This document shows, piece by piece, positions 9,948-58,767 of a DNA stretch of 64,000 bases. The DNA is from Anaeramoeba flamelloides. Its lineage: Eukaryota; Metamonada; Anaeramoebidae. The notes beneath the pieces were generated by a model that did no database searches, was not told the origin of the DNA, and saw nothing but the letters and a program-made list of their open reading frames with translations. The position numbers and the translations under genes are program-made. Numbering within the stretch: the first letter of the stretch is position 1; each line of letters starts with the position of its first letter. The stretch lies in NCBI GenBank assembly GCA_027625915.1, contig JANTQA010000023.1:6448001-6512000 (forward strand), given 5' to 3'.

Positions 9948-10143
9948 CGGTCAGTTTTAAATTTAAGGCACAAACTGAACGAAATTTAAGGCACAAAAAA
10001 ATCTCAATTTAAGGCACAAAATTTGGATTTTTTTTTTTACCACAAATAGATTTTACTAAAATATGAATTTTGTACTTGAATTTGAGATTTTTTTTGTACC
10101 TTAATTTTCGTTCAAGTTTGTGCCTTAAAAGTGGAACTGACTG
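9948..10143. mobile_element. Palindromic MITE, family A copy 1
   Basis: 196 bases that fold back on themselves almost end to end. The arms carry TTTAAGGCACAAA repeated three times per arm, with ends matching CAGTCAGTT/AACTGACTG. TA lies on both sides (9946-9947, 10144-10145). It belongs with the copies at 10606, 26568, 29991 and 58571. Confidence 0.88.
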
Positions 10144-10391: not shown

Positions 10392-10896
10392 TTGTTCGTT
10401 TCCTAAATCTTTCCAAAAGCTTCTTCCTGAAAATTTTTGATGTGTGTTAATTAAAAGTTGACTCAAAGAAGCAACAAGGTTGTGGAACTGGTGCTTTATG
10501 GTTTGAGAGATAGCTAGACTTTTAAATTGAGTTACTTTTTGTTTTGGAAATTTGCTTAAAAATTTTTCTTTATTCTCAGCAATTTCGAAAACTTCCTTTT
10601 CGCTATAGTCAGTTCCATTTTTAAGGCACAAACTTTCAACAAAATTTAAGGCACAAAACAATCTCAAATTAAGGCACAAAATTTATAATTTTTTTTTACA
10701 ATTTATTTTACTAGAATGTGAATTTGGTGATTTAATTTGGGATTTTTATTGTGCCTTAAATTTCGTTGCAGTTTGTGCCTTAAAAATGGAACTGACTGTA
10801 ATAAACAATTTTTTGTCGGTATTTTGTTGTTTTTACTTTTCTTTTTCGTTTTCCTTTTCCGTTAAATTTGAATGATCTTGATTTTTTTTTTTCCAT
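10392..10896 (-). pseudogene. Coding-like exon split by a MITE; family not recognised
   Basis: On the minus strand an ATG at 10896 opens a Lys/Arg-rich frame up to the MITE at 10798. Beyond the MITE, from 10605 to 10392, the sequence reads as good protein (SEKEVFEIAENKEKFLSKF ... FSGRSFWKDLGNEQG) and ends at a consensus GTAAGT donor. Removing the MITE with one TA leaves the two halves out of frame by one base, so this is probably a dead gene, unless the second half starts independently. No convincing next exon is visible at lower coordinates, where another MITE sits. I do not recognise the family. Confidence 0.45.
10606..10798. mobile_element. Palindromic MITE, family A copy 2
   Basis: 193 bases, same fold-back structure as copy 1, flanked by TA at 10604-10605 and 10799-10800. 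It lies inside a coding-like exon on the minus strand. The apparent open frame across it is an artefact of the palindrome. Confidence 0.88.
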
Positions 10897-11987: not shown

Positions 11988-14900
11988 TTATTTTTTATTA
12001 AAATTCGAGCTCATATTCCAATTTTCGTGACTATTTGAACTTTTTGTATATTTTTTATATTTATTTTTTTCTAAATCATCCTTTTTCTGTTCATCATTAT
12101 CTTTTGGAAAAAAAGGTGTCTGAAACACTTTCAACATTTCTTTAATTTTTGTTTGGCCAATACCATCAATCAGCATGGTGGTAGTTGTTGGGGCTTTAAC
12201 GATTTCAGCAAACGACCCAAATTTTATTAACAAGTCTTGTGCATTATTTGTATTAATACCTTTAATTTGTGTTAGACAGTCTAAAGATGCCTGGAAATTG
12301 TCATTTGATTGGTTTTCACCTACAATTAATTGTGGCCCTTTCTTTGAAACGGATTTGTAGCTTTGGATATACCTTGCTCCTTCTTCATGTGACCAGATTA
12401 TATTTAAACACCAATCATTATCAATCCCAAGTTTCGTTAAACCTTGGATAGCCAAATCAGAGTCTTCAATATCAACATATCCCATTAATATTCGTAAGTT
12501 ATATCGCCCCTTTAAACTTTCCATTCTTTCAATAATGTAATTTTTGTTGGATAAATGGTATTGCAAACTATTCATTTGAAAATCAGAATTAGAAAAAGGT
12601 TTTAAATTTAAATAATTGAATTGTTGAAATTAATTTTAAAAAAAAGAATTCTTTAATTCTGAATTAATAATAAGGAAAGAGAATGAAAATTACAAAAAAA
12701 AAAATCTACAACTTTTTTTAAAAGTAATTAGGCATTAAAAGCGTTTTTTTTTTTTTTTTTTTACAATAGAAGAATTTGTTTTTGCTTTTGATTTTGTTTC
12801 AATAAATGAATAAATTAATAGTACCAAAAATATTTGAATTCGAAGAAATGTGACTTTCAAATAAAGTGGATTATATTGAAAGGGTTAGTATTGTCACTTA
12901 AAAAAGGTGATAATAAAGGTCTTAAAAAGTAGCCCGAAAATATTTCTAAAGAATTAGTGTAATAATCTATCCAACATTTTTTAATTTTTTTTTTTATTTT
13001 TTCTTTTTTAAAATGAATGGTGAAATTATTTTGGATTTTTTTTAACAACAAAATTATGTGTTGGGATATTGAAGATCAAAGTTTCTTTAAGGAATTATTC
13101 ACTTCCTCTTCTTCTTTTTATATTCTGATTTTGATAATACATTCATTATTTATTATTTTTCATTTTTTCCCAGGCTGAATTTTCTTTGTATTGAGAAGAA
13201 TAGTTACAAAGGAAAAAGAGCTATTGGATAACCTGCTAATACTGTGATACTGGAACACGATAGTATGGGTAACTTGAAAACAAAAACCCAAAAGCAAAGG
13301 CTAAAAATGACCAAAGGTTTAAATTTAATCAGATCAAAAAGAAAAAAGAAATTATAACAATTAAATAATGATCCCCCCAAATGAACATTCATGATCAATT
13401 ATCAAATTAAATTAAATCAACCAAAAGTATCGTGGCTATAATTTTAGGTGTTCCTAATTAAAGATAGCATTGGGTTTTTTTTTTTTGATTTTTGCCAATT
13501 GCTTTTTATAAACTCTTTTTAAATTTCTTTTTTTTTCATTTTCTTTTTCCTTTTTTGCATTCAACTTTTTGTTTTTGCTTGTTAATCATAAAGATAATTT
13601 GGGTATGCACTTATTGTGAATAATCATGAAATATATGATTTTATTCTTAAACCACCTTTGAGAAATTTAAGAAAAAGGACATTTATAGTGTAATTTACAC
13701 TTCTTCAATAATAATAGATATTATTCTTTTTAGTTGGAGCTTTTGAAATAAGAATATTCAGCAAACACTTCCAAAATAAAAAAAAATTATTTTTCATTTA
13801 AAAAATTGTCTTTCTGAGTATTGAATTTTGGAATTTTTTTTAAATGATGGAAAAACACCACCAATATTTTATTAGTTTCGTGGTGAATATATTCAGATTT
13901 TTCACAATTGCCTTATCTTTATAAGAATCGAGATTTTTTTCTCAAGTGATCGCAAAAAAATGTTGACTACATATTAAGGATTATTTCTGAAAACCATAAT
14001 TTAAGAGAAACGAATTACCCTAAAAATGCACTTTTTACTCGTTTTTTGCTACAATATTTACAATTAAAAATATAGTCTTTGATTTTGAAGGCATTCTACT
14101 TGAACTATCTTGACGAAATTGATATTCGGGAAATCTAGGTTAGATGCCATACCTATTAAAATATTTTGATCCTGATTTGTGTTCTTATTAACTTTTTAAA
14201 AATATTGGTGAATTTGTTCGTTTTTACGAAGGTTCTCAATTAAATTTTTAGTATTTCATTAAAAAATGAACTCATTTTTTTTCCAGATTTACTTTTTTGT
14301 TAAGATCAGTTAATTTTTATTTTTAATAGTATATTTTGATCCAGTTTTTACATATATACAAAGATTTGTTTTTTCTTTAAAGAAAATAATTTTTTTAATG
14401 AAATAATTTGGAAAAATATGTTGATTATTAAACTCTTCTAAAAATGTGAAATATGAGCCAAACTTTGAAAAAACAAGAATTCGTTTATTATTGAAAATAA
14501 CTTTAAAAAGAAAGTTCGGTATTATAGTAATCATATTTTTTTCTTCATTTTTCAATTTCAAAATGTGGTAAAAATATTTATTTGATTTGCTATTTAATTT
14601 GCTCTCAGATTTTTTTCGATTTGTAACTGCTTCAAAAGTGTAAAAAAATAGTTTTTAATGATTAGAGAAAATTGAACTTTGGGGGTTTGTTTAATTTTTC
14701 ATTGATAGTTTTGAAACATTCTTTTCACACACATTTTTAGAATGGATAATGCACAAGGGCGATACATAACAATTTTTAACAAATAACGTTTCAGGTATTT
14801 AAGGTGGTTTAGTAAGAAAGTTAGGTTTTTTCTTTTCGTTAACTTTTTTTTTAATTTGAAATTTGTAACCAATTTGGAGAATTCGAGAAAAACAAACCAA

Positions 14901-17288: not shown

Positions 17289-20200
17289 TTATATTTTATT
17301 ATCCATTTCTTTATATTTTTCAACAAATCTTTTTTGTACTTTTCTTTTAACAAATAATTGTTGGAAAATTTTATTTATTATCTTAATATCAAATTTTAAA
17401 TCTTTATTAATTTTTTCTAAATATAACCATTTAACAACGGTTTCGATATCCTGTTTATTACATTTTATATTAAGAAATATTCTGCCGTTTTGAATACTTT
17501 CTTCGTTTATTGATAGTTTTGATTGCTTATTATTATCATTATTATTATTATCATTATCATTGTCATTGTCATTATTATTATTTTTATTTTTATTTATCGT
17601 GATATTTACCATATTTTGATTTAATTTATTATTCTTGTGATTCATAACATTTACATGTTTTGAATCAATGTCATTTTCTTTGTTTCTTTTTAAATCATTC
17701 TCTTTTATTTCTTGATTTGATTTGGATATTGATTGTTTATTTCTTGGAAGTATCTTATTTTTCTTTGAAAAAAAATTTTTGGTTTTTAATTTTAATATAA
17801 AATAATGTATCTTGATTTCAGTCTTATTAGAATTGTTAATAATCAAAAAATCAGAATTAATGTTTTTGCTATTATATAATAATTGTAAATCATTAATAAT
17901 CCCTGATAACCCTGATTTTCTGGAGAATTGTGCCATAGAAAAATTGAATAAATTCTGAACAATTTTTAAAAATTTTATTGAGCAATTCTTCTCAACTGTA
18001 CCTGTATAAAGCCACTTAACAATATTTAATCTATCAGATGAATTAACGTTTGTTAATAATGTGTTAATATCATTTTTTTTAATTCTTATGTTAAACCAAT
18101 GATTATTTTGAATATTGTGTTTTAAAAAATATTGATCATTTATTTCCTTGTCAAATAATTTCATTAAATCAAAAGTTAAAGGGTGTATCTGATCGTATAG
18201 TATAACCGCGGAGCGTGAAGCGCCTTTTATTATAACTTGTGAATTTTTTTGAAGACCAAAACAGTGTATCAAAAAAGCGTCTTTGATATACCTGTAAAAA
18301 AATTTCTTATTAACTAATTTCTGATCAAAATATTTCCCCCATCCGTATATATGATTTTTGTCATCAAGAACAAAACAAAACTGAAATTGTGATACAAATT
18401 GCTTTATATTATGATCTGACAAAGCCTCAACTATCTTAAACCCCCCCGATACAGGGTCAGACCAATAAAGAGTATTTTTTTTTTGTTTGTTGTCCTGAAT
18501 CAATAATATTAGTTGGTAATAATTATATTCGACGTGTGTTACATTTAAAAAATTTGAAAATAAGTTATTTTTCACTTCCAAAAATAAGCCAATTGGCGTT
18601 ATATGTTCTTCATTGGAATCTAAAAATTGTTGAAAACGAGTGATGTTAGTAATTAATTTCCCATTTTGAAGAAGAATAAAAATATGGTCATTGTAGAAAT
18701 TAGAAAAAACCCTTTTTACATTCTTGATTAGCAATTCTGGCACTTTAGCCCTGCAATATTTTACAGTTAATCTATTGTCGTTGGGTGTGCGCAACCTCAA
18801 ATAATAATTCCCTTTAAAATAAAGATCGCCATTTTGAAACAAAAAATATGTTTTATTTTTATCACAGAAAATATCTTTCAGTTGCCCACTAATCCCGGTC
18901 ATCTCTTGAAAACGATTTTCTTTAATTATTTTTTCAAATTTTGTTTGGTGGTGTTTATATTGATAATATTCGTTATCATTTGTTTGGAAAATATAATTGA
19001 AATGTCCCATTTTAATTGTTTTTATTTCTTTCTCCTCATCACCTATCAAATTATGTTTATAAAGGTATTTATAATTCGAGATTTCATAAATTTTATTATT
19101 ATGCTCTGATCTGAAAAAGATTGCATTATTATTTAACCAAAGATCTTTCATTCGAATATTTTTTAAAAATTTTATTTCATTGAAATGATTTTTTTGAAAA
19201 TCTGAATTATTATTATTTAAATTTAAAAATAAATTCTGCCCTATGGATATTTTTATCTGTGGTATTTTTGCTTTTTCGATTATTCTTAATTTTGATTGTA
19301 GTTGTAATTTTTTGTTTTCATTTTTTATTCTGCTTAATTCGTTGATAATATTATTATTTATTTTTAATGTTTTTAATATGAAAAATAAATCATTAAAAGA
19401 TTTTGAATTATACATTATATAATTATATTTATTGTTTTTGCTACTGCTGCTGCTGCTGTTGATGTTGCTGTTGATGTTGTTGTTGTTTTCGTCGTCGTAG
19501 TCGTCGTTTTTGTTTTTGTTTTTGTTGTTTTTGTTGTTGTTGTTGCTGCTGCTGCTGTTGATGTTGTTTTTGTTGTTTTTGTTGCTGCTGCTGTTGTCGT
19601 TTTTGTTTTTGTTGTCGTCGTCGTCGTCATTCTTGTTTTTGTTGTTGTGTTTATTATTATTCTTATTATCATTATCGTTTTTATTCTTATTCTTATTCCA
19701 ATTATTATTATTGTTTTTATTATTATCTGTTTTTCTAAAATTTAATTTATTAAAATAAAGTAATTGTTCGAATTGATCAAATAAATTATCATTAAAATTT
19801 ATATTTATATTTATTGCCTTTATTTTTTCTTTATCAAGAAATAATTTTTGATAATATTTACTTGAAATTTTTAAAATAAAAGGATTAATTTTTTTTATAA
19901 TTCCATTTTTGAAATTTAATTTAATTTTCTTTTGATTGCTTATCCGAGATAAATTTATATTTTCTTCTTTTTTTAAGTACGTTTCATAATAATATAATAA
20001 ATCGCTTTTTATTGATTTGTAACCAGATTTTTCAAATATTTCAATTCTGTTCATCTTTAATTTCTTAAAAATTAATTTCATATTTTTTGTTACAGTGTTT
20101 TTAAAAAATCCACAATATAACCAATTTTTAATTAAATTTATTTCTTCAATATTCAATAATTCGAGAACATTCGAATTGGCTCGTATATTAAACCATTCTA

Positions 20201-22018
20201 TATCTTCTAAAAGTCGGTTATTTCTTTTATTAGTATTCTTTATTTGATTAAAATGGTTTGAATAGGCCATTAAGTTTTCTAAAATGGGACTAATCTTTTG
20301 ATAAGTAAGGAAAGCGGAGCTAAATCCTGCAAATAGTTTCATTTTCTTTGTATATCGCAAATTGGAAATTGGTTTTAATTCTGTTAATTTTGGAATATAA
20401 TCTGTGTACGGAATACCTAATTGATTTTTTTTATTACACCCACAGACATATATTTCATTATTTTTTGTCAAGACCAAAAATCCATTAATTAATAATTTCA
20501 CTTTTATTGGATTTAATTTTGATGAATTTGGCACTAATTGAAATTCTGGGAAAATTTTATTTTCGTTATGCCCATTGAAATTGCCCGTGCCACAAGAATA
20601 TATTGAATTCACATTATTATTATCTTTCATTAAAAGAATTGTAAAATATTTATTGGGTTTAATTTTAAGACAGTTTTTATTGGCAAAAAATTTGTTCTCT
20701 ATAAATCTTATAATGTTTTTTTTTGTAATTTCACCAATTCCTAATTGCCCTTTTTGATTACATCCTTTAACAAAAATTTTTGTATTTAATTTCTGAAGAA
20801 AAATATTATTAGATAATCCATTTGCCCAGATTTTTAAAACGTTGCTTTGGATTAATATTGGCTTAAGTATTCTTTTTTCTAAATTATCATCTCCAAAAAA
20901 AACAATTCCATCTTTTCCAATACCATATAAATTGTTTTTATTAGTTAAAAAATAGGAGATTGTATTTGAGCTATAAATATTAATAATTTTTTCTTGGAAA
21001 TTTAAAAATATATTCAATTTTATTAATTTATGAAATATTTTTTTTTTTTTTTGGTTGGATCCTAATTTTCCATAAATCCATTTCCCTAAAAAATAAATTT
21101 CATTTCTTTTTGACAAAAATAAAAAATTTCTATTACCCGAACAAATTTTTTTAAAGTCAATATCAGTTTTTTTTTCTTGATCAAATTCTAACATTTTAAT
21201 ATTCATATTTTCGTTTTTGCGTCTTTTTTCTTTTTTGGTTTTCATTTTTTTTTTGTTACATTTTACTTTTACCCCATCCTGTTTCTCTTTTTCGTTATTA
21301 TAAAAACCCTTTTCCTTTTCGTAATATTCCAAATTTTCTATATTTTCTTTTTCCTTTCCGATTTCAATTTTAATTTCTTCTTCAGTCGTATTTCCATTTT
21401 CTTTAGTCTTATCATTTTCTTTTGTTTCTTCATTTTCTTCTTCATGGTTATTTGTTGCTATTTTATTATTGTTTCTATTTAACAAATTTCGATTTAATTT
21501 AATTTTGTATTTTTTACTTGAAAAATAAAGTAAATTCTTTTTATTTTTCCTTTCAATTATTGTGCAATTTTGTGAAAAGATGACTTTTTTTATATGAGAA
21601 TGTTTAAAATAATGATGTTGGATTGGATTATTTTTTTTTGTTTTAATCCCTAATGCCAATTGGTTCAAATTATTATTTCCCCAAACAATATTATACTGAT
21701 TTTTATTATAGCAATAAAACTGTAAATTCTTTTCTTTTAAAAGTAATTTATTATATATTTTTTGTAATTTTTTTTTAAAGCCACAACTTTTAGACAACTG
21801 ATAAAAGTCTTCTAATAAAAATAAATCACGAATCAATTTTTTGGTAAGATCATTTTTTTTAATTTGTAACTCTCTAAAATATAAATATTTGATAAAAATT
21901 TTAAATGATTTTAAACTTGAATTTGAATATTCTTTTAATTTAAAAATTTTTTCATCAACATTATTGTTTTTATTGTTGTCATTATTATTGTTGCTGCTAC
22001 TGCTACTATTGTTGGTGG

Positions 22019-22049
<31 letters not shown>

Positions 22050-23879
22050 ATTGTTGTTGTAATCGTAGTCGTTGTTATTGGTATTATTACTAAAGTTGTA
22101 GTCATTATGAAAGGATGTTATATTTTGTATCATGTCTCTAAATAATTGAGATCTTAATAATAATATACATTTATCGATAATTATTTCTTTATTATTTTTA
22201 ATTAAAATATAAAAATGGGATTTATTTGCTTCATATCGTTTTTTCCTGCTTTTGTATAAATTTAAATAATCAGATTTTAAACCTGATTTATTTGATTTTA
22301 ATAAATACCAATTCGAATCCTTTTGGTTAATCGTTAAAATTAATTTTTCATTTTTTTTATTTTTCTTATAATTTCTAATTTCCCCAGCATATACCCATTT
22401 TAATAAATTTTTTATATTTGTTAATTTTTCTTCCTTGAGAATCTTTTTAATCTTTTCGAAATTTGAATTTAATCGAAGTTCTAAAATTAATGGATGATAA
22501 TATATTATATTTTTATTTAAAATATTATTTTTCAATTTATTTAAATTCTTTACAAAATTATTTTTTGGATTTTTACTAATTTGATTATGATTATGAATAT
22601 ATAAAAAGTCATTGCAAAATTCTTGATTATTTAAAAAATCTAAATAATCTAAGCAATAATCGGGTTTTGCCTTCCTTTTGCCAGTAAGAATTAAAGTCCT
22701 TTCGCCTTTTATAAATTTAATTGGCTGCCCCTTTGGGAATCCATTCATGTTTAATAAATTGATAACAGAACCAATCTTGATGTTATATTTTGATTGAGTC
22801 ACAAATTCAAGATTTAAAATCAGAAACTGGTAATTATCAGCAATTACAAATATTTGAGCATAACTATTCTCAATACTATTGATATTATAGTGTCGTAGCA
22901 TTTTTATTAAATGAATTTTATAATTAATCTCTATTTTCGAATGCTTTTGCTCCTTTGGAATAAAAAGTCCATTACAAAACGGCTTTTTGCTTTTGTGTCT
23001 GTTAGAATCACTGGGAATGATTTTTTTCGAATTGTCGTTTTCAATTTTTTTAAGGCGATATAATTTTCGATGTGAATTTGGTTTTGCAATTAACAAAAAG
23101 ATATAATTTTTGATCATAATCATTTTGACAACTTTTTGGTTATTTAAAATTTCAATTTTATGAAATAATTTGTTTATTTTTTTGCTTAATTTTTCATTTT
23201 GAAAAACATTGGTACTTTTGCGAGTTATTCTTTGACAGTACTCTTTTAAAGTTGGTTGTTTCTTGTCCTTTGCCTTTTCGTTAATTAGTTCATAATAATT
23301 GTTGTCTTGTTTTTTAATCACCAAAATCTGAGAAAGGCAATAGATTTTTTTCACCTTTGGACAGATCAGTGTTGGGTAATTACTGTGTAAGCCAGACCCA
23401 ATTAAGCCAGCAAAATACAAATCATCGCTTTCTGTCAGAAAATAACAAACTCCACCCAGACATCGAATCTTTCGAATTCGGATCCCTTTTAACAAAAAGA
23501 ATTCATTTTTAATGAGATTGGTGCTGTTGTAAACCGGAAAATAATCACCAATACCAAATTTCCCTGAATTGTTATATTGGCCACAATAGACGATCCCTTG
23601 TTTTGTTAAAATCATGATCGAGTAATTATTAAAACTAATTTGAGCTACTTTTTTGAACTCATCCCTTTGGAGCACCTCATAACTCCCCCTTTTTGTCTGG
23701 ATCTTCTGAAAGGATCCATCCAAATAATGTACACTAATCGAATTGTATTTTTCATAAACATTCTTGATACCTGGACAGGTGTTTGTTTGTAAATACTCTG
23801 GAAAGAAATTATGAACCAAATTGTTTTGAGGATTTCTGTGTTGGTAAAAAAAATACTTTTCTTCTTGTTTTTTTTGCAT
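17289..23879 (-). CDS. Giant RCC1-repeat/BTB protein, three tandem modules
   Basis: One intronless frame of 2196 residues from ATG 23879 to TAA. RCC1-type blades (GxxYxxGxNxxGQLG-like) occur in three blocks, about 60-400, 725-1180 and 1540-1870, for example IYVCGCNKKNQLGI and HIYGWGKYFDQKL. Each block is followed by BTB/POZ-type segments: KNLLKWVYAGEI near 495 with a BTB at 550-690; LIKNWLYCGFF near 1255 plus another to about 1370; NIVKWLYTGTV near 1954 plus one to 2165. A KSG-LKSD-L-LY-like motif recurs after the first BTB segment of each module. Long N/S/D tracts lie at about 600-640 and 1381-1485. RCC1-BTB proteins commonly act as scaffolds or cullin-3 substrate adaptors; that role here is inferred. 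Many blades are degenerate. Confidence 0.85.
19436..19735 (-). repeat. Asn/Ser/Asp trinucleotide tract in RCC1/BTB gene
   Basis: Encodes about 100 residues of N, S, D and K. The codons are largely AAC, AGC and GAC, unlike the AAT/GAT preferred in the rest of the gene. A similar shorter tract, mostly AAC, is at 21965-22075. Confidence 0.85.
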
Positions 23880-26567: not shown

Positions 26568-26738
26568 CAGTCAGTTACACCTTTACGGCACAAAACGCAA
26601 TCAAAATTAAAGTACAAAATTCAAATTATAGTAAAATAATTTGTATAAAAAAAAATTCCAAATTTAGTGCCTTAATTTGAGATTTTTTTGTGCCTTAAAT
26701 TTCGTTAAAAGTTTGTTCCTTAAAAGTAAAACTGACTA
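26568..26738. mobile_element. Palindromic MITE, family A copy 3
   Basis: 171 bases with CAGTCAGTT at the left and AACTGACTA at the right; TA only on the right side (26739-26740). It is the most worn and shortest copy. Confidence 0.82.
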
Positions 26739-26740
26739 TA

Positions 26741-29990: not shown

Positions 29991-30181
29991 CAGTCAGTTT
30001 CACTATTAAGGTACAAACTTTCAACTAAATTTAAGGCACAAAAAAATCTCAAATATAGGCAAAAAAATTCAAATTCTAGTAAATAATTAGTGACAAAAAA
30101 TTCCAAATTTTGTGCCTTAATTTGAGATTTTTGTGCTTTAAATTTCGTTGATAGTTTGTGCCTTAAAAGTGAAACTGACTG
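29991..30181. mobile_element. Palindromic MITE, family A copy 4
   Basis: 191 bases with intact CAGTCAGTTTCAC ends and TA on both sides (29989-29990, 30182-30183). Arms repeat TTTAAGGCACAAA. The best-preserved ends of the family. Confidence 0.9.
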
Positions 30182-36173: not shown

Positions 36174-39100
36174 TCATTTGATCTTGGAAAACAAACTTTA
36201 AAATGGGACGATTTAGAAAAAATTCAAAAACAATTAAAAAAATGTAAACCAATCCAATCAAACCGAGGCATAATTGATGGGTTTTCTTTAACAAAAGATC
36301 TTATTTCATTAAGAAAATTTTTTTATTTAACTGAAGAAGTAAGTTTTTATTCTTATTCTTATTCTTCTTCTTATTATTATTTATTATTCTTATTCTTATT
36401 CTTATTCTTATTTTTTTATTTTTATTATATTTTAATTTAAATAAAATAAATAATCTTCAAAATTATAATTAATAAAATATTCTCTCTATACACATACATT
36501 TTCTTATCAAAAAAAAAAAAAAAAATCAAAAATGACTCAAGGGTGTATTAGGTTTAATAAGACAAGATTTAGCAGTCTATTGGTTTGATACCAAAAATGA
36601 ATTAGAAATGGCAAGTGAAAGGGAAATTTTAACTGAATATGGTGTTAGATTTTTATCCAAACCATTAAAAAAGGGAAAAATCTCGATTATAACTGCAAAA
36701 TCAAAAAATTTACTAAAAGTTTATTTTGTATTAACAGCAAATTTCATCCAATACATAATTTTAAATGAAGAAGAATTTGAAAGTAAAATGAAAAAAAGGG
36801 TCATTGACTGTAGTATTCCAATAGTTTCATTAAATATAAGCCGAAATATAAAACACAAAATCTCCAAAAAAAAAGATCGCAAGTTACCTAATTTTGGATT
36901 ATCATACGGATCAAAAACTTTAGCTTTAATTTTACAATCGGAAGATGAAAAGGAAAATTGGATGAGATTAATATCAATAATGCAAGCAAGGGCATTAATT
37001 CAAAAATTAATCAAAATTAATTTGATCATTAATAAGAAGAATTTTTTTTATATTGTAATTCCCCATAGTTTTATCTTTTCAAAAAAATTTATCTTTTCTT
37101 TTGATGTTAAATGTTATTCCTCAATGTGGCATCTTAAAAAGAATTTTGATGATTTTATTGAATTTAGAAATAATTTACATTTATTATTCCCAAATATAAT
37201 ATTTCCAAAAATTAAAAGATCAAAAAAAAAAATTGTTGAAAAGGTTTCAATTAATCAAATTATCCATAAACATAATGATAGAGAACATAGTAATAATAAG
37301 AATAATCATAACAATAACAGCAACAACAATAACAACAACAATAATAATAATAATCATAATAATAATAATAATAATAATTCTGAAAATGAAATTGAGTCAA
37401 AAAAGAGAATAAAATCAATATATTTGGAATCCTTTTTAAGAGCCGTTTTATCAAATAATGAAATTGCAAAATCAAAAATCACTTTTCAATTTTTAGGATT
37501 ATATAATATTTTCAATCCAATACTAATGAATGATTGTAATTATTTAAAATTCTTATTAAATTTTGATGATAAAATAAAAACACAAAAAAATGAAAACGGC
37601 GAAAATCCATTATATTATTGTATCAAAAATAATTATGATCAAAAAATTATCAAAATTCTTTGTAAAAACATTCCTGATTTATATAAAGAAGTTTGTAATG
37701 ACCATCTAAATTCCTTATTATTAGCAATTGAGCTTGATCAATTAGAAACAATCAAAACATTCAATAAAGTGGGAATAGATTTCAATTATGCTGAAAATAA
37801 GTTGAATGGCATCACATCTTTATTATTTGCAATTACAAAAAAGAAAATCAAAATTGCAAAATATTTGATTGAAAATTGCAACTGCAATGTCAATACCCAA
37901 TTAAAATATAATAAATATTCTGCATTACATTTAGCAATAAATGAAAATTCAATTGAAATAATTCAATATTTAATAACTAATAATAATAATAATGCTAAGA
38001 AAAATTGTTATGACAATAGTCTTGTTAAGGATAATGAAATAAACGAAGAAACTGACCACACCAACAACGAAAGTAGCAGCAGCAACAACAACAACGACAA
38101 CGACAATGACGACGACAACAACGACTACAACAACGACTACAACGACAATAACAATGACAACAACAACAACGACGACGACGACAGCGACGACGACAACGAC
38201 AACGACAATGACGACGACAACAACAACAGCATTGATTTGGAATTATTAGATTTACAAAATTTATCACCAATTAATTTTGCTATAAATTTTAATCATAACA
38301 ATGAAATAATTAAATTATTTTTAAAACAAAAAATAAATTTAAATTCAAAAAATTTCCAAAATCAAAATAGTTTACATTTAATTTGTATTAATGAAAATGA
38401 AGAGATATTAGATTACATTTATAATGATAAATTAATGAAAAAGGAAATAGAAAAAATCATTAATGAAGTGGATGTTTTTAATAAAACTGCATTATTTTAT
38501 GCTATTGAAAAAGAGAATTTATTTATCATTAGAATATTATTAGAATTAGGCACTAATATAGAAAAATTAGATTATAATTTAATGAATGCATTGCATTTAA
38601 CAATCAAATTAAATAATTCAAATATTTGTAAATTATTTCATCAAAATAAGAAAGCCAATGTCCAATTAAAAAAATCTACGAATATTGCAAATAAAAATTT
38701 AGATTATCCAATTCATACAGCAGTATTAAATAGTAATATAAAAAATTTATTTTTATTGTTATTATATGATGCGGATATTAATAAGGTGAATAAAAAAAAT
38801 CAAACTGGACTGCATTTAGCTTCAAAGAAGGCAGATTTAAAAATGATAGATTTTTTATTAAAAAATGGAGTAGATACGAACATCAGAGATGATGAGAATT
38901 GCTATTCTATTTATTATATTTGTTCAATATTAAACAAAAATTTAGCTTACCAAGCATTTTCAATTTTTTATAATTTGATCAAATTTGATCAACTAAATGA
39001 AAAAAATGGCCAAAACTCCTTAACTTGCCTACACAAATCAATCTTAAATAAAAATGAAAAATTATCTAGGTTATTAATTGACATTGGCTCGGATGTTAAT

Positions 39101-39658
39101 ATTCCAAATAAAAAAAACGAAACACCATTACATCTCGCAATAAAAAAAAGTAAAAAAATATCTGATTATTTAATTCAAAACGGTGCCAATCCGAATTTGA
39201 TGAATAACAATCAAGAAACGGTTTTTTCTTTAATCAAAAACAATTCAAGTTATATCAACCAATTATCTGTTAAGATCCATTTCTATGAAAAGAATAAGAA
39301 GAACAGTAAGAAGAACACCATCAATGAAAACAATATCATCGAAAACCATTTGTATGCCACTTGGAATTATTTGGACCAAGACAATGTATTAGACTTTAAT
39401 CCTAATTTAATAGAAAAAAAAACATTAACCATAGATATTTCTAATATGTTGATTATTAATGATATTATCCAATATATAAAAAATAATTTTAATTTATCAG
39501 AAAACGTAGATATAATTCCTATTGTCCAATCAAAATCTAATTATGTAACCTTTTTGAATAATGCCCACCCAATTAATTTTTTAATGACGTTTAACAATAC
39601 AATTGATTTATATAACAAAGAACTCGCAAATATTTTGTTTGATTTTGAAAAAATTTAA
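36174..39658 (+). CDS. PH-PX-ankyrin repeat protein
   Basis: Exon 36174-36338 (55 codons, AG acceptor, GTAAGT donor) joins in phase 0 to exon 36542-39658, which ends TAA. The upstream start is not certain. After a lead-in of about 75 residues a PH-type domain lies at about 36660-36990, ending in the expected ENWMRLI helix with its Trp. A PX-type domain follows (37040-37500): the FDDFIEFRNNLHLLFP core, a basic patch KIKRSKKK, then an Asn tract, then the closing SFLRAVLSNN helix. From 37510 to 39260 run about ten or more ankyrin repeats (for example TPLHLAIKKSKKISDYLIQN). The last 100 residues (TLTIDISNMLIINDIIQYIK) look ubiquitin-like. PH and PX domains bind phosphoinositides, so a membrane-recruited scaffold is inferred. 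Confidence 0.85.
36345..36417. repeat. TTATTC microsatellite in short intron
   Basis: Imperfect (TTATTC)n and TTCTTATTATTA run filling the first half of the 203-base intron 36339-36541. Confidence 0.85.
38040..38235 (+). repeat. Asn/Asp/Ser tract within ankyrin region
   Basis: About 60 residues of N, D, S and Y encoded almost wholly by AAC, GAC and AGC, between two ankyrin repeats. The rest of the gene uses AAT and GAT. A second Asn tract at 37285-37380 splits the PX domain and mixes AAT with AAC. Confidence 0.88.
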
Positions 39659-39753: not shown

Positions 39754-41022
39754 ATGATATTTCATCAATATTAAAGCAATTGTTTTAATTATTTTCATAA
39801 AAAAAATTTTTCTTATTTGTTGATTAAACAAATGATTATTTTAAAAAAAAAAACAAATTACTTTTAAATTGAAACTAAAACTGATTTTAATTGAATTCAA
39901 AAATCAAAATTTTACCTTTCGCGGGTGGTGATTTTTGAGTGTTAATTTATATTATTTCTATTATTTATCTTAATATCATATCATTGTGTAATAAATTTAT
40001 AATTTTTCTTTTTTTTATTTTTATTCTAGGTTTTATTCATGATTATTATTATTATTTTCTTTTTCTTTTTCTTTAACTTTTGATGGAGTAACCATATCAC
40101 AATTTACATCAAGATTTTAGTATTTTATTCTTTATTGCATATTATATTACTGATCTGAAGTGTGATGTAACATTCATGGATTCTGAAATTAATAATGTAT
40201 ATCATTATACTATACAACTCGAATTTTTTTTGATTGTTAAAATTGGTTTACATGTAGAAAACTATTTAGTTAATGGGTAATAAAATAGGAACAAAGATTA
40301 TAAAAAATATTTTTCGGGGAAAGTAAATTTTTTTTTTTTTGAAAGAAAGTGAAAAAACAGTCAAAACAAATTTTTTTTTTTAAGAAAAAGATTTTCTGTT
40401 ATATGTGCTTCTAATCTTTCAATTCAGAAATTAATAAATAATATTTAAACCCTTTTTAAATAACTCTTTTTAAATTTCTTTATCTTTTTTTTCTTTTCAT
40501 TTTTTTCTTTTTTTCTTTTTTTAGTTTGGCTTTTTAAAACATAGAGAAATTTGGGTTTACCTTTTCGATGAGAAATAGTGGAATTTATTTTTTTTAGGAT
40601 TAATTTAAAGAAGGGTTTTATATTGGTAAAAGCTATCCTCGGTGTAATTTATACACCTTCAATAATAATAAGAAAATAAGGGTATGTTTTGAAATTTTAC
40701 AAATAATCATTACCTAACTTTTTTCATAAAGGTTATAGAAATTAAAGTAACTTGTAAATAGTTACAGATAACAAATACAAAAATGTTTTTCTTTTGGTAT
40801 TTCAAGGTTTACCAACTCTTCTTTTTACATTTTAATTTTTTTTCAACTTTATTACTTGTTTGAGTCCAAAAAAGAGTTAATTTTTGTATTTGAAAATCCT
40901 TTTTTTTTTGGAAAAATGTGAATAATCATAAATGAGTTATCTTGTAAAGTTTTACTAATATTTTTAATTAAAACCAATATTTAAAAAGAGATCAGTTATT
41001 ATTTTTTTTTCGTTATAATTTA
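39750..41022. other. 3' flank of the PH-PX-ankyrin gene
   Basis: No gene seen. Contains dispersed repeat C at 40440-40690. The gap to 43684 lies between two convergent genes. Confidence 0.6.
40440..40690. repeat. Dispersed repeat C, second copy
   Basis: Corresponds to 13500-13740, sharing the T/C-rich block and the GTGTAATTTATACACCTTCA stretch (GTGTAATTTACAC there). Confidence 0.55.
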
Positions 41023-41425
41023 TCCAAATGTATTTTTTTATCAAATTTTTAACACGATGGCTAAAATAAAACTAACATTTATTCCATATTTAGTACAATT
41101 TTGCAATTTTTGAGAATTTTTAACTTTCCTTTTCAACATGTTAAAAATTAATATTTAGACTTTAGTTATTTTTTCAAAGGGTTTCTTTGACTCAATATTA
41201 ATTCCAAAAGTGATAATATTTTATGAAATAATTTTTATCAATTTAGCTTTTTCTTATTTTAAAATCATTGTAATCAGATAATAGTCTCTTACGAAATAAT
41301 GAAAAATACAAACAAATCAAATTAAATTTATTAACCAAAAAAAAAAAAATTGTACTAAATATGGAATAAATGTTAGTTTTATTTTAGCCATTGTGTTAAA
41401 AATTTGATAAAAAAATACAGTTGGA
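41023..41425. mobile_element. TA-flanked MITE with about 80-base inverted ends
   Basis: 403 bases. The arms pair over about 80 bases; a long part (GGCTAAAATAAAACTAACAT onward, 41059-41102 with 41347-41390) is almost perfect. TA at 41021-41022 and 41426-41427. Near-identical arms suggest a fairly recent insertion. No coding capacity. Confidence 0.85.
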
Positions 41426-41739
41426 TAACTTCCACAAATATCTAATTTTAATATTTGTATTATATATATCATATTCATTTGGTATACCAATAATTAAAAC
41501 ACAATATATAGGACAAGTCGAAATTTACATTCTAATTCAAAAGTAGAATTAACAAATCACACTCGTTCACCAATAACCTTAATATAATTTTAAAAAAGGA
41601 ATCAAAAATTATTTTAAACAGTTAATACAAAAAAGGGAAATAAAAAACTTAAAAGGAGATATTTTTTTAAAAAATAAAATAAAATTGTTTTTGAGATCTT
41701 GAAATCCTTTTTTTTTACAATTTGAAAAGTGATTTATGA

Positions 41740-43683: not shown

Positions 43684-46600
43684 TTAATTAAAGATTTCAA
43701 GAAGCTCTTCTTCACTAATTTTCTCAACATAATTTGATGGAAAAAACCCTTGTTCAATCTTTTCATTTTTACCCTCTACATTAGAAATAAGGGTTCCAAA
43801 CCAAAATTCTTGATCATCAGTATTTAAAACAGAAATAATATCACCTTCATTGAAATATAATTGGTCATTTTCTTGATTATTGTTTTGAGTGAATGCTTTT
43901 GTTGCCATTGCAATAAATAACTCTTCGAATTGTTCCTTATTTCTAAATATAAAATCATAATACTTGAACATTGTTGAAACGATTATACATTCCTTTTGCA
44001 TATTTGTAACATCATTAGAATATATACCTCTACGTGAGCATAATGTTGGCCCAAATAGTAATGCTAAATTTGAAATATCCATTTTATTAGCTGATTTGTG
44101 TTTGGAAATATTTATACATAATTCTGAAATAATTCGAAAAATTATTCGATTTAATTCTGGTAGTTTATAAACTAATTTTTTTAATTCAATTGATAAATTT
44201 TTATCTTTGTGTTCATCTATAAGTTAAATAACGTAATAACAATAATACGTGTATATTATAAGAATATTATGTTTATTAAGTAAACGATCAATTTTTATTG
44301 ATTAATATTTTTTTTTTTTTTTTTTTTTTTTTCATAGAATTTTGAAAAATCTAAAGAATTTTATTTATTAATTGATAAAAACGCAAAATTAACTAAAATA
44401 TACATTTGGTAATATATTTTCTTAAATGAAAACAGTGTTAACAATTAAATGTTTTAATTGCTTTTATAAATAAATTTATTTTTCAATTCGAATAGACCTC
44501 CAAAAACAGATATAACAAAAAAAAATATATTATAAAAATTTAAGTTTCTTTTGAATATAATTCTTTTTTTAAATCTATTTTTATATTAATTAATTGTCCT
44601 CATATTTTGAATAGATGTATTTATTCATGATTTAAAACAATGGGATGTTTTAATTATTAAATCTATTTAACTTTTTTATTATTTTTTTACTTGATTAGAA
44701 ATATTACAATTAAACTATTTTTCAGTTAAACTTATTAGATTTTTGTGATTGTCTCATGAATTACCAGAAAGTAGCGCTAAGCTCAGAGTTTTTTTTTAAA
44801 AAAAAAAAATACAGGTAGAGATGTTATTTTGAAATATAAATTTTGAAATCGAAAAAAAAAAATTGTTATTTTTAATAGACCTAATACCAAACAAAAACAA
44901 ATCAGTTGGTGAAGCACGATCAATGTAGGAACAATCAGCAATGAAAAACTTGGTACCTTTTAGAAAAAAGTACCAAAGAGTAAAACCCAATTTGAATGGT
45001 TATGAATTATAATTGTAACAATAACTGTGATTGTGTTTCGAAGCGTTGATCTGTGGTGCTTTTTGAGATCTCGAGGTTTTTTTTTTTCATTTTTTATTAT
45101 TTTTCAATTGGGTTATTTTTACTGGAAAGAATCAGACAAAACCATTACTTTGTCAATTATAGACTATTACAAAATAACTACAAATTAGTATATAATTTAA
45201 TTAAATCGATTTTGAACAGAAAGAAATTTATTTGAAATCGAAGAAATTTAATCATTTAGACATCTGAAAATATAAAAAAAGAAAATAAAAGATTAATTTT
45301 TTTTATTATTATTTGAATTTTTTAAAATTGAGAACACTTTTCAATTTTATTTTTTATTTTTAATTTAGATTTTTTGGGATTAAAACTTTTTGACAGTTAT
45401 TGGATTTTTTGTAAATTAGAATTTTTCTTATTTGTTTTATTTTCCATTTATATCATTTGAATGGTTTTTGTTTTCATTACTCAGAAATATAAAATAAGAA
45501 AAGACATTATTTTTTTATTTATTCTTGGTATTTTTATTATCTAGATCACTTTGAACTTTTTTTTGTTAATTTGATTTTTATAAATGTTTATCGTTTGAAA
45601 TATTTTTTTTTAATTTCATTTTTTGTTGATTGATATCTATGAATTTTTTTTTATTTTGAATTTTTTCAATCAAAAGAACTGTAATTTCAAAATATCCTTT
45701 TTCGTGGTAGGTCACTCCTTGAGTATGTAACAAATTCAAGTAAAGTAACTAGGTCCTCAAGAAGTAGTAAGAATAATAAAGATATTTTCATAGTAATTCT
45801 GAAATTAAAAAAAAAAAAAAACTAGGCACTATTTGGTAGTTGTTAATACCCTTGGATACATGATAAAATGTATCTGATTTTTTTTTTTTTTTTTTGTTTT
45901 TTAGCAAGTTATTTAGATTTATAAAATCTATTAAAAAGGGTATTAAATCTACTCTAACTTTAATATTTAAAATTTAAATTATTCATGATTTTACAGTCAA
46001 AACAATCAAAATCATTAATATTGTAAAAAAAAAAAAAAAATTGTTCACCAGATTAGGAAAGAAAGTTTAGATTTGGAAGAAATTAAATTTTTGTGATAAT
46101 TCAATAAAATGAAGATTTATTTTGTATCAGATAAATAGAAAAAAAGAAAGAGTGATCTTACTTTGAATTTTTATAAAGTCAAAATATAAATTTGATGTTA
46201 ATAATGTTTCAGGGAGTTCTCGGAACCATAATTTTAACAGACCAGTAACATTATGCACATTATTTTCATTTTCAAATAATAAATTTTCCCCCAAATTAAT
46301 ACGTTGTTTATATTGATCAATTTGTTTTTTATAACCACTTTTTCTAAAAATACCCAATGTTTTTAAACCTAATTTATTTGAAATAATTAATAATTTTTGG
46401 TTAAATAAAGAAATTTGTTAAAAAATGAGAAATTTTAATTGTTAATAAGAAGAAAAAATTTCGATTAATATTTAATCAGAATTTATAATAGGATTTCTTT
46501 CAAGTTTTTTTGTTTTTATATTTTTTTTGTTTAATGATCCAAAAAAAATTTATTGAATTCAAATGTTTTCCTATTTTTGAAAGTGATATATAAATACATA

Positions 46601-49600
46601 AGGATTTTTTTGGCAAAAATAATTTTTTTCTAAAAATTATCATTTTTTTGATATTAAGATTATTTTTTTAAAAATTGGTTTCTGAATACTCCTTTTTACA
46701 AAATAATGATTTTTATATTCTTTCAAAATATAAAATATTTATATTTATCTTTAATTTCTCATGATTACAAAAAGCATTTAAAGGACAAGAAATATAAATA
46801 CAAAAAAAAAAATAAACAAAATGCTCATAAAACTTTTAATTGTAGGGTTATTGACGATAATTCTTCTTCTTCTTCTTCTTTTTTTTTACAATATAAATAA
46901 GATTATTTCTTATTTTCCATATCAAAATTAGTAATAGGTTGATTTGAAAAATGCTTCATTAGAGTAAACTAAATTAATTTTTTACTTAGTACATTACACA
47001 AATAAAATATAGATAAATCCATTGATATATGAAACTATAATCATTAAAAATTGATTTTTGGAAGAAAAAAAATGTTGTTTTATATTTTTGAGAAGGTGTG
47101 TAATTTAATTAAAATATAATAATGAGAATTTTGTTTCAATTTATTTTTTGATAGTTTTACTTTGATAAACTCTGTTTCAGTCAAAAGGGCCCAACCATTT
47201 TTTCAAATATCAATTATTTTATATAATTTACCATTTGAAGAACAAATAAGAAATAAACAGAATAATACATCTCAAAGAATTGTTGATATATGTCTGATAG
47301 AAAACTAATTAATCAATAAATTTTCCAAAAAAATTTCAAAACTCAAATTCTTAGGGCCTTATTGAGAAAAACAACAATGTTTGTTTTGAACTTCTACTGG
47401 TATTTGAATAATAAATATTAAACATTTTTCACTTCATTTTCCATACTTTTCTTTTAGAAATCAAAGTCCCTAAACGAAGTGTGTTGGTATTTGTGGTCTC
47501 TATTTGAAAAAGGGAAATGAAAATTCAGTGGAAATTTTTCACATTTATTAAACAAATCTCAAGATCAAATATCAAAGAGAATTGCAATAGAAATCAATAT
47601 GATTTCTCAGCAATCATATTCCTGGTTTCAATAACCTTAGAATAACACATTTTTACCAAGTGACTATTGATCTTACAATAAAAAAAAATTTTGCAACTGA
47701 ATGACCTTTTAAAAAAAAAAACAAAAAAAAAAAACCAAAAATGTGAAAAAATGTGAAAAACAGATTTCAATTTTGAAAATGTCCAAAATAAAATTTTTCT
47801 TCTAATATTTATGCAAACCCTACAAAAACATGTATTATACCCATTATAACTGGGCCGACTTGACTGAAAAATAGTTTAATTCCAAATTAAGTTCCTATTA
47901 CAACCATGAAAAAAGAAATTTCAAAATAAAATAAATTCTTTGCTACTTTTACAATTTTTAATAACTTTCCTTAGAATAAAAATTATTGGTCCATAACAGA
48001 TCATTGATCAAAAATTATTTTTAAAGATATTTTATCATTTAAGTTGATAAATTCAATTTTCCAGGTTCTATTAATTTTTTTTCGAAATTTAATAGTTAAA
48101 ATTTTGAAAAAAACTTTTTTCATTACAGTGAATAGGTTTTTATTATATTTCAGTCAAAGTACTTTAAATTTAATAAAGATCTTTCAAAAGGATAATCAAT
48201 TATTTTGACTATTGAACCATTATTTATTGTTTTAAATTGAAAAAAATAATTTTTTTTTGGTTTTCCGTTAGGTTTTTTTTAATTCTGAAATGAATTGAAA
48301 ATTTAAATAAATTTTCTGTTTATTTCAAAAAGTAAAAAAAACCTAGGACACTTTTCGTTGGGTTTTCTTGAGTTTTCTTGTTTATTTAGAAAATCGATTG
48401 ATTTTCGTTAGGTTTTTTTTACTTTTTGAAATAAACAGAAAATTTTGATAAATTTTCGGTTTATTTCAAAAAGTAAAAAAAAAACTAGAAAACTTTACAA
48501 ATAAAACAGAAAACCTCAAGAAAACCTAGAACACTTTTCGTTAAGTTTTTTTTATTTTTGAAATAAAAAGAAAATTAAATAAATTTTCAGTTTATTCCAA
48601 AAAGTAAAAAAAAAACACAGTTATGTTTTCGAGAATTTAAAAGAATTGAGTAAAATCCTTGATTTTTACACTATTCTTTTAAATTCTGGAAACGCAAGGA
48701 GAGGGATATTTATGACCATGAATTATTTTTTCTAGATTCCAGTTTTATTATATTAGTACAGCATTTTCAAAACTGTTAATTATTATTAATTCAAAGTAAA
48801 TATCTCAAAGTTGGGTTTATATTAAATTCATTGCCGGAGTGATTTTAAAAATTTTTACACCCAAAAAAAACCTTTTTATTTCTTGGAGAGAGGGTTTTCA
48901 AAATTTTTATATTAGTAACAACAACAAAAACAATTTCCTCCATAATTTGAAGATTTATAATATTTATTATATATATATAAATAAACTAAATTGCTAATCA
49001 TGAAATGTTAATTAAAGAGTTAGTTTTATCTAATTTGTTTTTTTTTTCAATTTTATTTTTTCATAGAAGTGATGTAAAGGGGTAATTATTCATTTTTATT
49101 TACATTTATATTTAATTAGTAAATAACTAATTATTGTGTAAATAGTGAGATTATATTATATAATATTTAAATTTTCAATCTTGATATTGGTCTTCAGAAC
49201 ATTATCAAAAATTAATTTCAATTTAATTATTATCTAATATAATCTCACTATTTACACAATAATTAGGAATCTGATAAATTAATTATTATATGAAATAGAA
49301 AAATAATAATTTCATTGGAACAAAGATATCAAAAATAGACAATTAATTCAAAAAAATGAACCAAAATAAAAGAAATTAACCTAATGTTCAGATTAAATGA
49401 TAATTCTCTTTTGATTTTGATTTGGTTCAAGTATTGATCGAGCCTTTACATTCATCAATAAAAATCAATTTAGCAATAACCATAAAATCCCAACTGATTA
49501 CAATGTTAGATATAGCCACTAATAAAAGTTCCCAGAGGATAATACAAATCAACCTATAGAATTCGTTATATATATTTAATTCTCTTTAGTTAAATGATTT

Positions 49601-52600
49601 TTCTAACCTTGCCAATTCAGCTTAAAAAAAAGCAGTTTAAATTCAAAATATTTCACAAAAAGTTATACCTAAAAGATAGATCTGAAGTTTTTTTTTCATC
49701 TCTCTCTTTTTTTTTTAATGTAACTCAAACTTTTACTTTTAAAATTTTAGAGTAGTTCAATTAGAGTGTGTGTAATACAAAAGTCCTCAATTTCACTTTT
49801 ATTATTATTTTTTTATTAGATCTGAAAATATTATTGTTTATTTTAACTGTGAGATCTTGATTTTTATTATTTCAAGTGCTTCATTAAAAATATATTATAT
49901 TTTAGTCTTCAAACATCAAATAAAACACCAAATAGAATTTTGAGATAGAAACAAAAGATAAACCAATAAACATTTTTTAAAATAGATAAGACAATTCAAC
50001 TTAACATTATGTGATGAAATATAATTTTATCCATGAAAACAATTAATAAATTATTTTTAAGCAATTACTTTGAATAATAAAACTTATCTAGAGTAAATAA
50101 TGTTGTTTTTTAGATCATCTTTCAAAAAAATAAAAAGTGGAAATTTTGACTTTATAGCTGCTCCTCCCTGAAGATAGCTATAATAGAAAAATAAATACTT
50201 GTTTTTAAACTTCTGATCTGTTGATAATGAGAATTCGTTTAACAAGAGCAAAAAAGAAAAAATCAAAGAAAAGGGAGATGTGTGTGGGTTATTAAATAAT
50301 AAATAAGTGAAATAGCTTACCATTTTTTTCAAGATATTTAACAGAATTTAATATTATTTTTGGAATTTTTGAATTGTCCCTCTGAATAACAGTTTGTAAA
50401 GGTACACCAAATATTTCTGTATTTAAACTTTTTTTCTTGGTAGTAGGTTTGTTTTTATATCTTTTCTTTGGTGTTCCTAGGATTTTTTTCTCAAAGATTG
50501 CATGTGTTACAGATCTTGCTAAAGTATTAATTTTTTTTTTTTTTTTTATTTTCGTTTTTTCTCGTTTTTGGTATAGGGATCCACGACTTAAAGATCTTTG
50601 GAGCCTTGGTTTTTTTTCATCTATATCAATGAGTAACGTGTTTTTTCTTTTTCCTTTTAAATATTGGAATTTCTAAAAATCAAATTATAGATATTTATAG
50701 ATAGAGAGAGAGATAGATAGATAGATTTTAAATGAGATAAAATTAAAGATATTAATCGAAAATTTCAGATATTTTAATGATTTATTTGTTTATTTGATTT
50801 TATTTTTATTTTTTTTTATTGAATTTTGAAAAATCTAAGAAATTTTATTAATTAATTGCTAAAAATGACAAAAAAAATACAAAGAGTTCAAGTTTAATTT
50901 TAAAAATAAATATAATTAATGATATCTCTTTTAGTAAAATAAAAATTATTCAAGATTTAAATTGTTTTTATTTATTTATTTAAAATGAAAAAATAAAACT
51001 CAATTTTGTTGCTTTCAAAGTTTAAAAAAATTTCAAATAACAATTTTTTTTTCGAATTGAGCTATTAAAGAAAAAAATCAGAAATAAATAGAATAAAATA
51101 AATTAAAGAATAGCCGATATCCATCTGAAGTAAAAATATAATCAATTGATTATATTTACCTCAAAATTGAAAAACTAATAATCTTAGGAATAAAAATCGA
51201 AAAAACAACAATTTTCAATTTGATCTGTGATTGAAGATCAAAAGAAAATTCCAACCAAAATCACAATGATTTCTCTACATCATGTTCACTCCTTCGATAA
51301 CATTGAATTGAACACAGTTTTAATTAGTGAAGATAGATCTTGCAAAAAAAAAAAAAAAAATTGCAAATGAATTACCTTTCAAAAAAAAAAGCAAAAGTTC
51401 CAAAAATGTGAAACGAATGATTTCAATTTTGGAATTTTTAAAAATTAATTTTTTTCTTTAAATTTCTATTTAAATCCTTTTAACGCATGCAACTCATTTA
51501 TTACTACTGGTCAGTTTTACTAGAAAATATTAATTTTAGTTTTTTTTTGAAATTTTTAAAAATTTCATAGGTGATCTTAATGATTAACTAATATGCAAAC
51601 CATAATAAATAATCGTTTTTTGAATAAATTTTCTAAAACTGTAATATAGCGCATTAAATATTTTTTAGTTTTTCGGTTTTTAAAATTAGAATTTAAAAAC
51701 AATAATCAATAAATTTCATTTTCTCATTTGAATTCTTGAAAATATCTAAATAGAATTGGTGTTAGAAAAAATCAAACCAATAGTTTATTTTTTCCCTGAA
51801 AATTATTCTTATTTATTTTATTCAGTTTTTTTTTATTTTTCTTTTGATTTTAGTTAACATACATTTAATGATCATAAGTACTTTAATCAAAAATTTTTGT
51901 AATAATAATAATAAATTTCAAATTAGGATTCATAAAATGGATAATTTTGGGCATCTTTTTCAAGAATGACTTTTTTGTATAGACTTTTGTCTAAAATTTT
52001 TGTTAGTTTATTTTTTCCATTTTATTTGAATGAATTTATATTTTTCACAATACTAGATAAAATTATTCAAATTTTTTATATATTAAAATCAATAATCACA
52101 TTTTTTTTTTAATATTTTTTTTGAATATGTTGCAATCTTGTTTATTTTTTAGATCATTTAAATAAAGGTAAAGATATTGTTTAAATATATTCTATATAGA
52201 CCCCAATTCAAAATTTTTAACACACCAAAATTCAATTTTCGAAAAACATATTTAATCAATTCTCAAAGAAATACCAAATTATGAATCATTCACTGATTGG
52301 AATGTTAACACTTGTTTATAAATTACAATACTCAAAAAATCAAAAATGAAATAATTATCAATACTAATAAATTATTGGTGTGTCTAAAAATTTTTAGAAT
52401 GGGTATAACGAAAAAATTCATAGGTAAATTTGTAAAAATTCTATTAGGATTATTGATCTATCAAATGGTTAGGTAATATAACTAATTGTATTTGGGTACT
52501 TCTTCTTCTTTGAATAACTCAACTTTAATATAATATCAATTGTGGAAAAAAATATTTCATTCAAATGATATAAGTTAGGTAATTCAAAAAATAAAATGAT

Positions 52601-58570: not shown

Positions 58571-58767
58571 TCCAGTTCCACTTTTAAGACACAAACTTTC
58601 AACTAAATTTAAGGTAGAAAAAAATTTCAAATTAAGGTTCAAAATTCAAAAACGTGTCAAATATTTTGAGTTTTAAAAAAAAAAAACAAAAAAAGTTCTT
58701 TAATTTGAGATTTTTTACAAACAGTAAATTTTATTGAAGGCTTATATCTTAAAAATGGAACTGATCG
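58571..58767. mobile_element. Palindromic MITE, family A copy 5
   Basis: 197 bases, ends TCCAGTTCCACTTTTAAG and the matching complement, TA at 58569-58570 and 58768-58769. Worn, with the terminal CAGT altered on both sides. Confidence 0.82.

Follow-up and report, generated by a model that had tools for sequence, protein, structure and literature searches.

What kind of protein is encoded by a 2196-residue open reading frame (ORF) on the minus strand of an Anaeramoeba flamelloides contig, and is it, as an initial annotation of the locus proposed, a chain of three tandem modules that each combine RCC1 repeats with two BTB domains? We examined the ORF within a 64,000-nucleotide stretch of contig JANTQA010000023.1 (the window, to which all coordinates refer). 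The ORF stands on the strand and at the coordinates originally claimed and has no in-frame stop codon, whereas each of the remaining five frames holds between 118 and 308 (190 and 308 in the other two minus-strand frames of 17289-23879; 181, 118 and 130 on the opposite strand). It was read as a single open frame from the genomic sequence. We favour one gene with three diverged modules, each an RCC1-like propeller followed by two BTB domains, that would act as a multivalent adaptor, and we give this reading a probability of roughly 0.4.

Each module shows the same order: an RCC1-like propeller, a BTB-like segment, a link containing a KSG/SDL motif and a second BTB-like segment (Table 1). Pattern searches placed the tryptophan of a W-[LV]-Y-x-G motif at residues 495, 1253 and 1956, a KSG/KSN...D[LY] motif at residues 528, 1284 and 1988, and a second LY motif at residues 665, 1373 and 2151; the patterns are loose, and 6 of 12 matches to the LY pattern and 1 of 4 to the KSG pattern fall outside the assigned sites. 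An [LV]Y pair occurs in all six segments, in the order WVYAG (495), YLYF (665), WLYCG (1253), LLYF (1373), WLYTG (1956) and WLYL (2151). As a series of ordered segments, the architecture is likely to be correct. Three tandem RCC1-like plus two-BTB modules in one chain are the best reading and a partly supported one: the motif order recurs threefold, but BTB identity is direct in one of the six segments. The triple-module protein of the initial annotation thus holds in large part, with uneven support.

Table 1 Features of the ORF and of a neighbouring gene, in window coordinates.
Feature	Residues	Coordinates	Strand	Basis
Whole ORF	2196 aa + stop	17289..23879	-	Open-frame reading
Module 1	1-720	21720..23879	-	End placed at start of module 2 propeller
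Module 1 propeller, PF25390-matched part	74-158	23406..23660	-	E 5e-4, 19.9 bits, below cut-off 150
Module 1 first BTB-like segment and link	455-548	22236..22517	-	No Pfam BTB match; motif register
Module 1 second BTB	545-720	21720..22247	-	PF00651 E 4.1e-6, 27.4 bits without residues 595-640
Low-complexity run inside module 1 second BTB	588-650 as masked	21930..22118	-	Entropy mask
Module 2	721-1532	19284..21719	-	Profile match; module 2/3 alignment
Module 2 propeller	721-1195	20295..21719	-	PF25390 E 2.8e-26; PF00415 E 6.4e-13, three stretches; query 721-1200
Low-complexity insert, module 2 propeller	787-896	21192..21521	-	Entropy mask, two runs, 787-858 and 864-896
Module 2 first BTB-like segment and link	1222-1305	19965..20216	-	No Pfam match; aligns with module 3
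Module 2 second BTB-like segment	1300-1532	19284..19982	-	PF00651 E 0.027, 15.1 bits, below cut-off 20.5; LY motif 1373
Low-complexity run, module 2 second BTB-like segment	1373-1496 as masked	19392..19763	-	Mask starts at LY motif
Module 3	1533-2196	17292..19283	-	Module 2/3 alignment; structure model
Module 3 propeller	1586-1907	18159..19124	-	AlphaFold2 model residues 57-378; Foldseek E 3.2e-9 to UVR8; PF25390 E 4.2e-4, query 1533-1900
Module 3 first BTB-like segment and link	1918-2007	17859..18128	-	No Pfam match; aligns with module 2
Module 3 second BTB-like segment	1998-2196	17292..17888	-	No Pfam match; KWLY motif 2151
Low-complexity run, module 3 second BTB-like segment	2082-2128 as masked	17496..17636	-	Entropy mask
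RhoGAP-SH3 gene with split RhoGAP domain		43684-50672	-	Pfam and splice ends by eye

To assign the propellers, we searched the protein with Pfam profiles. The whole protein scored above the cut-off for RCC1 (PF00415; 40.7 bits, cut-off 21.7) and RCC1_2 (PF13540; 28.4 bits, cut-off 22), and RCC1 repeats are thus present by profile, clear in module 2 only. The RCC1-like domain (PF25390) reached 117.7 bits over the whole protein (E 9.7e-34), below its cut-off of 150. On the thirds 1-725, 726-1490 and 1491-2196 this profile gave E values of 0.0012, 2.7e-25 and 0.003, and on the trimmed pieces 1-430, 721-1200 and 1533-1900 it gave 5e-4, 2.8e-26 and 4.2e-4; as a yardstick for the weaker of these values, unrelated families reached 0.0085 on real pieces and 0.031 on controls. 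No RCC1 or BTB family was found in the six control sequences (reversed and shuffled versions of the module 1 propeller, the module 3 propeller and the module 1 second BTB), which yielded four unrelated weak matches. On these profiles only module 2 has a clear predicted propeller; the signal from modules 1 and 3 is weak.

For module 3 we built an AlphaFold2 model, which has a mean pLDDT of 41, a pTM of 0.38 and 64 of 667 residues at a pLDDT of at least 70. When the model was compared with the PDB, Foldseek returned 216 matches at E ≤ 0.001, of which the best was UVR8 (3.2e-9); RPGR, RCC2, HERC2 and RCC1 were also among the best 50 of the 216. By title or known identity, 47 of these best 50 are RCC1-like propellers, and the remaining three are two chains of Tetrahymena complex IV and chain K of a Set8-nucleosome entry. 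The query-normalised TM scores for the best 50 of the 216 were 0.15 to 0.23, so blades are recognised and the ring is poorly reproduced. The input was a three-row alignment of the modules with module 2 among the rows, and the Foldseek support is therefore not wholly independent of that module. With this reservation, the low-confidence model of module 3 resembles RCC1-like propellers.

The initial annotation had expected the three thirds to align with each other, and this was borne out pairwise for two of them. In a self-BLASTP comparison residues 1614-2034 aligned with 900-1341 (E 2.7e-7), an alignment that takes in propeller and first BTB-like segment in the same order, and the next best off-diagonal match paired residues 124-158 of module 1 with residues 1654-1690 of module 3 (E 0.07). 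Smith-Waterman alignments with low complexity masked gave z 12.0 for module 2 against module 3, with none of 200 shuffles as good, but z 0.3 for module 1 against module 2 (80 of 200 shuffles as good) and z 0.8 for module 1 against module 3 (37 of 200). The tails alone behaved similarly, with z 6.6 and 0 of 500 shuffles for module 2 against module 3, and 99 of 500 and 86 of 500 shuffles as good for module 1 against modules 2 and 3, respectively. Module 1 was recovered by profile: against a profile of modules 2 and 3 it scored 32.7 compared with a null maximum of 23.5 (0 of 100 shuffles), in an alignment confined to propeller residues 122-181 and in register. On these alignments modules 2 and 3 are homologous from the propeller into the BTB part, in the same order, and the triple chain presumably arose by internal duplication.

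BTB domains proved harder to assign. PF00651 scored 26.3 bits on the whole protein (cut-off 20.5), and the match falls in module 1. Across the six segments the BTB profile rose above the cut-off in one (the second of module 1), stood at chance level in one and gave no match in four. The chance-level value, E 0.027 in the second segment of module 2, is no better than the unrelated matches of 0.0085 to 0.019 in the same search or of 0.031 in a control. A direct Pfam search of the second segment of module 3 gave no PF00651 match. The initial annotation had read the W-LY-G segments as BTB-like and had staked that reading on profile searches; in direct Pfam searches PF00651 matched none of the three, which by that rule counts against a BTB fold in them.

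The segments can still be related to one another. A profile of the three first segments scored 17.6 against a profile of the three second segments, compared with a null maximum of 15.0 (0 of 100 column shuffles), and the two aligned at the LY motif, over 33 columns only and with an HH-suite probability of 1.56. This short match is suggestive of a BTB origin for the W-LY-G segments, and together with the motif register it makes the case for the four segments without a Pfam match; BTB identity for most of the segments is what we infer from it, and we regard six true BTB folds as an even call. A model of the module 1 tail, built on a three-row alignment, has a mean pLDDT of 39 and shows a strand pair followed by helices in the second BTB and helices only in the first. 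Foldseek found no PDB match to it under E 0.001 (best 4.2); 11 of 44 matches were chains of BTB proteins by title, all at E of at least 4.2, and we discounted this likeness. Searching PDB sequences with the second BTB of module 1, its low-complexity run cut out, returned no BTB and one designed protein (E 0.17), and a search with a profile of the three tails returned nothing at E up to 5.

These results also bear on a different reading, which accepts as real the propellers and the module 1 second BTB but no more, and takes the W-LY-G segment for an unrelated helical domain similar to the final helices of a BTB. The failure of PF00651 in all three W-LY-G segments is consistent with it, as are the helices, with no strands, in the low-confidence model of that segment in module 1. 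The match between first- and second-segment profiles at the LY motif, short as it is, speaks the other way, and we consider an unrelated domain rather unlikely.

Low-complexity runs had been described as spacers that follow the second BTB and close each module. Their positions do not confirm this: in modules 1 and 3 the run comes before the second LY motif, and in module 2 it follows the motif. When residues 595-640 were left out, the BTB match in module 1 grew from 31 residues (557-587) to cover positions 13-106 of the concatenated query and spanned its junction at 50, so the asparagine-rich run sits inside the second BTB. In module 2 the weak BTB match stops before the run, and it is only their order that places the run within the tail. 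Directly after residue 720, module 2 begins its first RCC1-like stretch (732-774), with no low-complexity spacer of comparable size between.

An interrupted BTB, together with outer propellers that score weakly with RCC1 models, might mean that the outer modules are losing function and that the chain is a relic of internal duplication. We think this very unlikely, because the 2196 codons hold neither a stop nor a frameshift, a run with a probability of about 10^-99 from base composition alone, and because modules 1 to 3 abut within the one ORF with no intergenic stretch between them. Were the outer modules nevertheless decaying, the gene would illustrate how a repeat-rich genome can harbour internal duplications, and loops rich in asparagine within a folded domain. 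For a chain of three working modules, the uneven conservation (the propeller is canonical in module 2, and the BTB is best in module 1) suggests a division of labour among the modules and not three equal units.

RCBTB2 and its kin have one propeller, unlike the present protein. They share with it the presence of RCC1 and BTB parts in one protein (RC/BTB2; PMC3387240). RhoBTB has two tandem BTB domains, as proposed here, and a Rho GTPase domain where the present protein has a propeller (passages of PMC1257465). Three RCC1-like domains per chain have a precedent in HERC2, as described in part of PMC11577452, in which they lie far apart in a 528 kDa HECT ligase; HECT was absent among the four families that Pfam found in the whole protein at E up to 5. 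The nearest plan is that of human IBTK and Schizosaccharomyces pombe Btb1, which, in the passages of PMC4447969 used here, combine ankyrin and RCC1 repeats with two BTB domains that lie apart. The motifs of our protein follow the same order of RCC1 repeats and then two BTB domains, three times over and with BTB identity uneven. IBTK and Btb1 have N-terminal ankyrins and one such set, whereas the present protein has three modules and, in a Pfam search of the whole protein at E up to 5, no ankyrin family. Because it has no ankyrin repeats it does not belong to the IBTK family, and its plan is nearest to IBTK or Btb1 minus the ankyrins, three times over. Its parts belong to known types, and what is unusual is the triple chain.

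What is described for these relatives in plan guides what the protein might do. According to the same passages of PMC4447969, IBTK is a Cul3 substrate receptor that loses its association with Cul3 without both BTB domains, carries a 3-box after the second BTB and, when stripped of its ankyrin and RCC1 parts, binds Cul3 as well as wild type does; Pdcd4, the one IBTK substrate tested, is bound by the C-terminal region and not by the RCC1 part. In fission yeast, Btb1-3 join a ligase with a Cul3 homologue, and the cullin interaction of Btb3 requires both BTB domains (passages of PMC1257465). By analogy, the propellers of the present protein would bind partner proteins, the BTB-like domains would pair with each other in the same chain, with those of other copies or with a cullin of the Cul3 type, and the chain could act as a multivalent adaptor, perhaps for Cul3 ligases. 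The dispensability of the IBTK RCC1 part for Cul3 binding and the binding of Pdcd4 elsewhere argue against propellers as substrate receptors, and we put forward a Cul3 adaptor function only tentatively. A scaffold independent of Cul3, in which binding falls to the propellers and the degenerate BTB-like segments serve only to stabilise the chain or to pair internally, is a possibility we take seriously without favouring it; five of the six BTB-like segments fall under the BTB cut-off and four have no BTB match at all, although the nearest described plan, that of IBTK and Btb1, works with Cul3 (passages of PMC4447969).

If all modules of the favoured triple chain are functional, nature would here have fused an IBTK-like adaptor into a multivalent form, and the protein would lend itself to testing whether BTB domains can pair within one molecule. 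A stronger version, in which three propellers and six BTB-like domains make up a pre-assembled scaffold with its BTBs paired within the molecule, so that one chain replaces the dimerised, separate RCC1-BTB adaptors of other eukaryotes, strikes us as quite improbable; such a scaffold might gather several cullin ligases or partners simultaneously.

We searched for relatives in viral and prokaryotic collections, and absence from such collections says little. In viral contigs tblastn confirmed no relative, whether the query was the whole protein, the propeller of module 2 or the alignment of all three modules, none was found in the genome contig collection with the whole protein as query, and phages gave no tblastn match at E 1e-5. 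In the rest of the window, tblastn of the protein found no second copy under E 1 (best 1.1). Among the open-licence literature matches listed, no description of a triple RCC1-BTB-BTB chain was found. The Anaeramoeba genome is A+T-rich, as stated in part of PMC11550330, and the words 'BTB' and 'Rho' are both absent from the main text of that paper.

The ORF had also been singled out as intronless among genes with giant introns. Long introns do occur nearby: a RhoGAP domain identified by Pfam is split on the minus strand into pieces at 46127-46417 (profile 12-85) and 43684-44223 (profile 93-145, then SH3), and GT and AG ends, read by eye, lie about 1.9 kb apart between them. A piece at 50292-50672 on the same strand looks like the start of the same RhoGAP domain, although it has no Pfam match; its GT and the next AG are about 3.9 kb apart, and a second intron of that length is likely, again judged by eye. 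The contrast with the neighbours was not confirmed: the window also holds uninterrupted ORFs of 802 and 1016 residues and one of 830 that runs off its edge, and long unbroken ORFs are ordinary here. The 1016-residue ORF, at 36608-39658 on the plus strand, encodes a PX domain and ankyrin repeats with Asn/Asp-rich inserts, and a piece of an ERCC1/Rad10 gene (E 3.5e-17) lies at 11988-12629 on the minus strand. We also observed several repeats in the window. A segment of about 0.7 kb is duplicated at 47166-47841 and 60139-60800, with a spacing of about 12.97 kb and 83 to 94% identity in six pieces. Units resembling AAGGCACAAA form a dispersed short repeat in both orientations (9978-10037, 10610-10703, 26647-26740, 29995-30088 and 58573-58666), and long inverted repeats at 55126-55473 and 41017-41431 have arms of 142 nt (83%) and 96 nt (93%), respectively.
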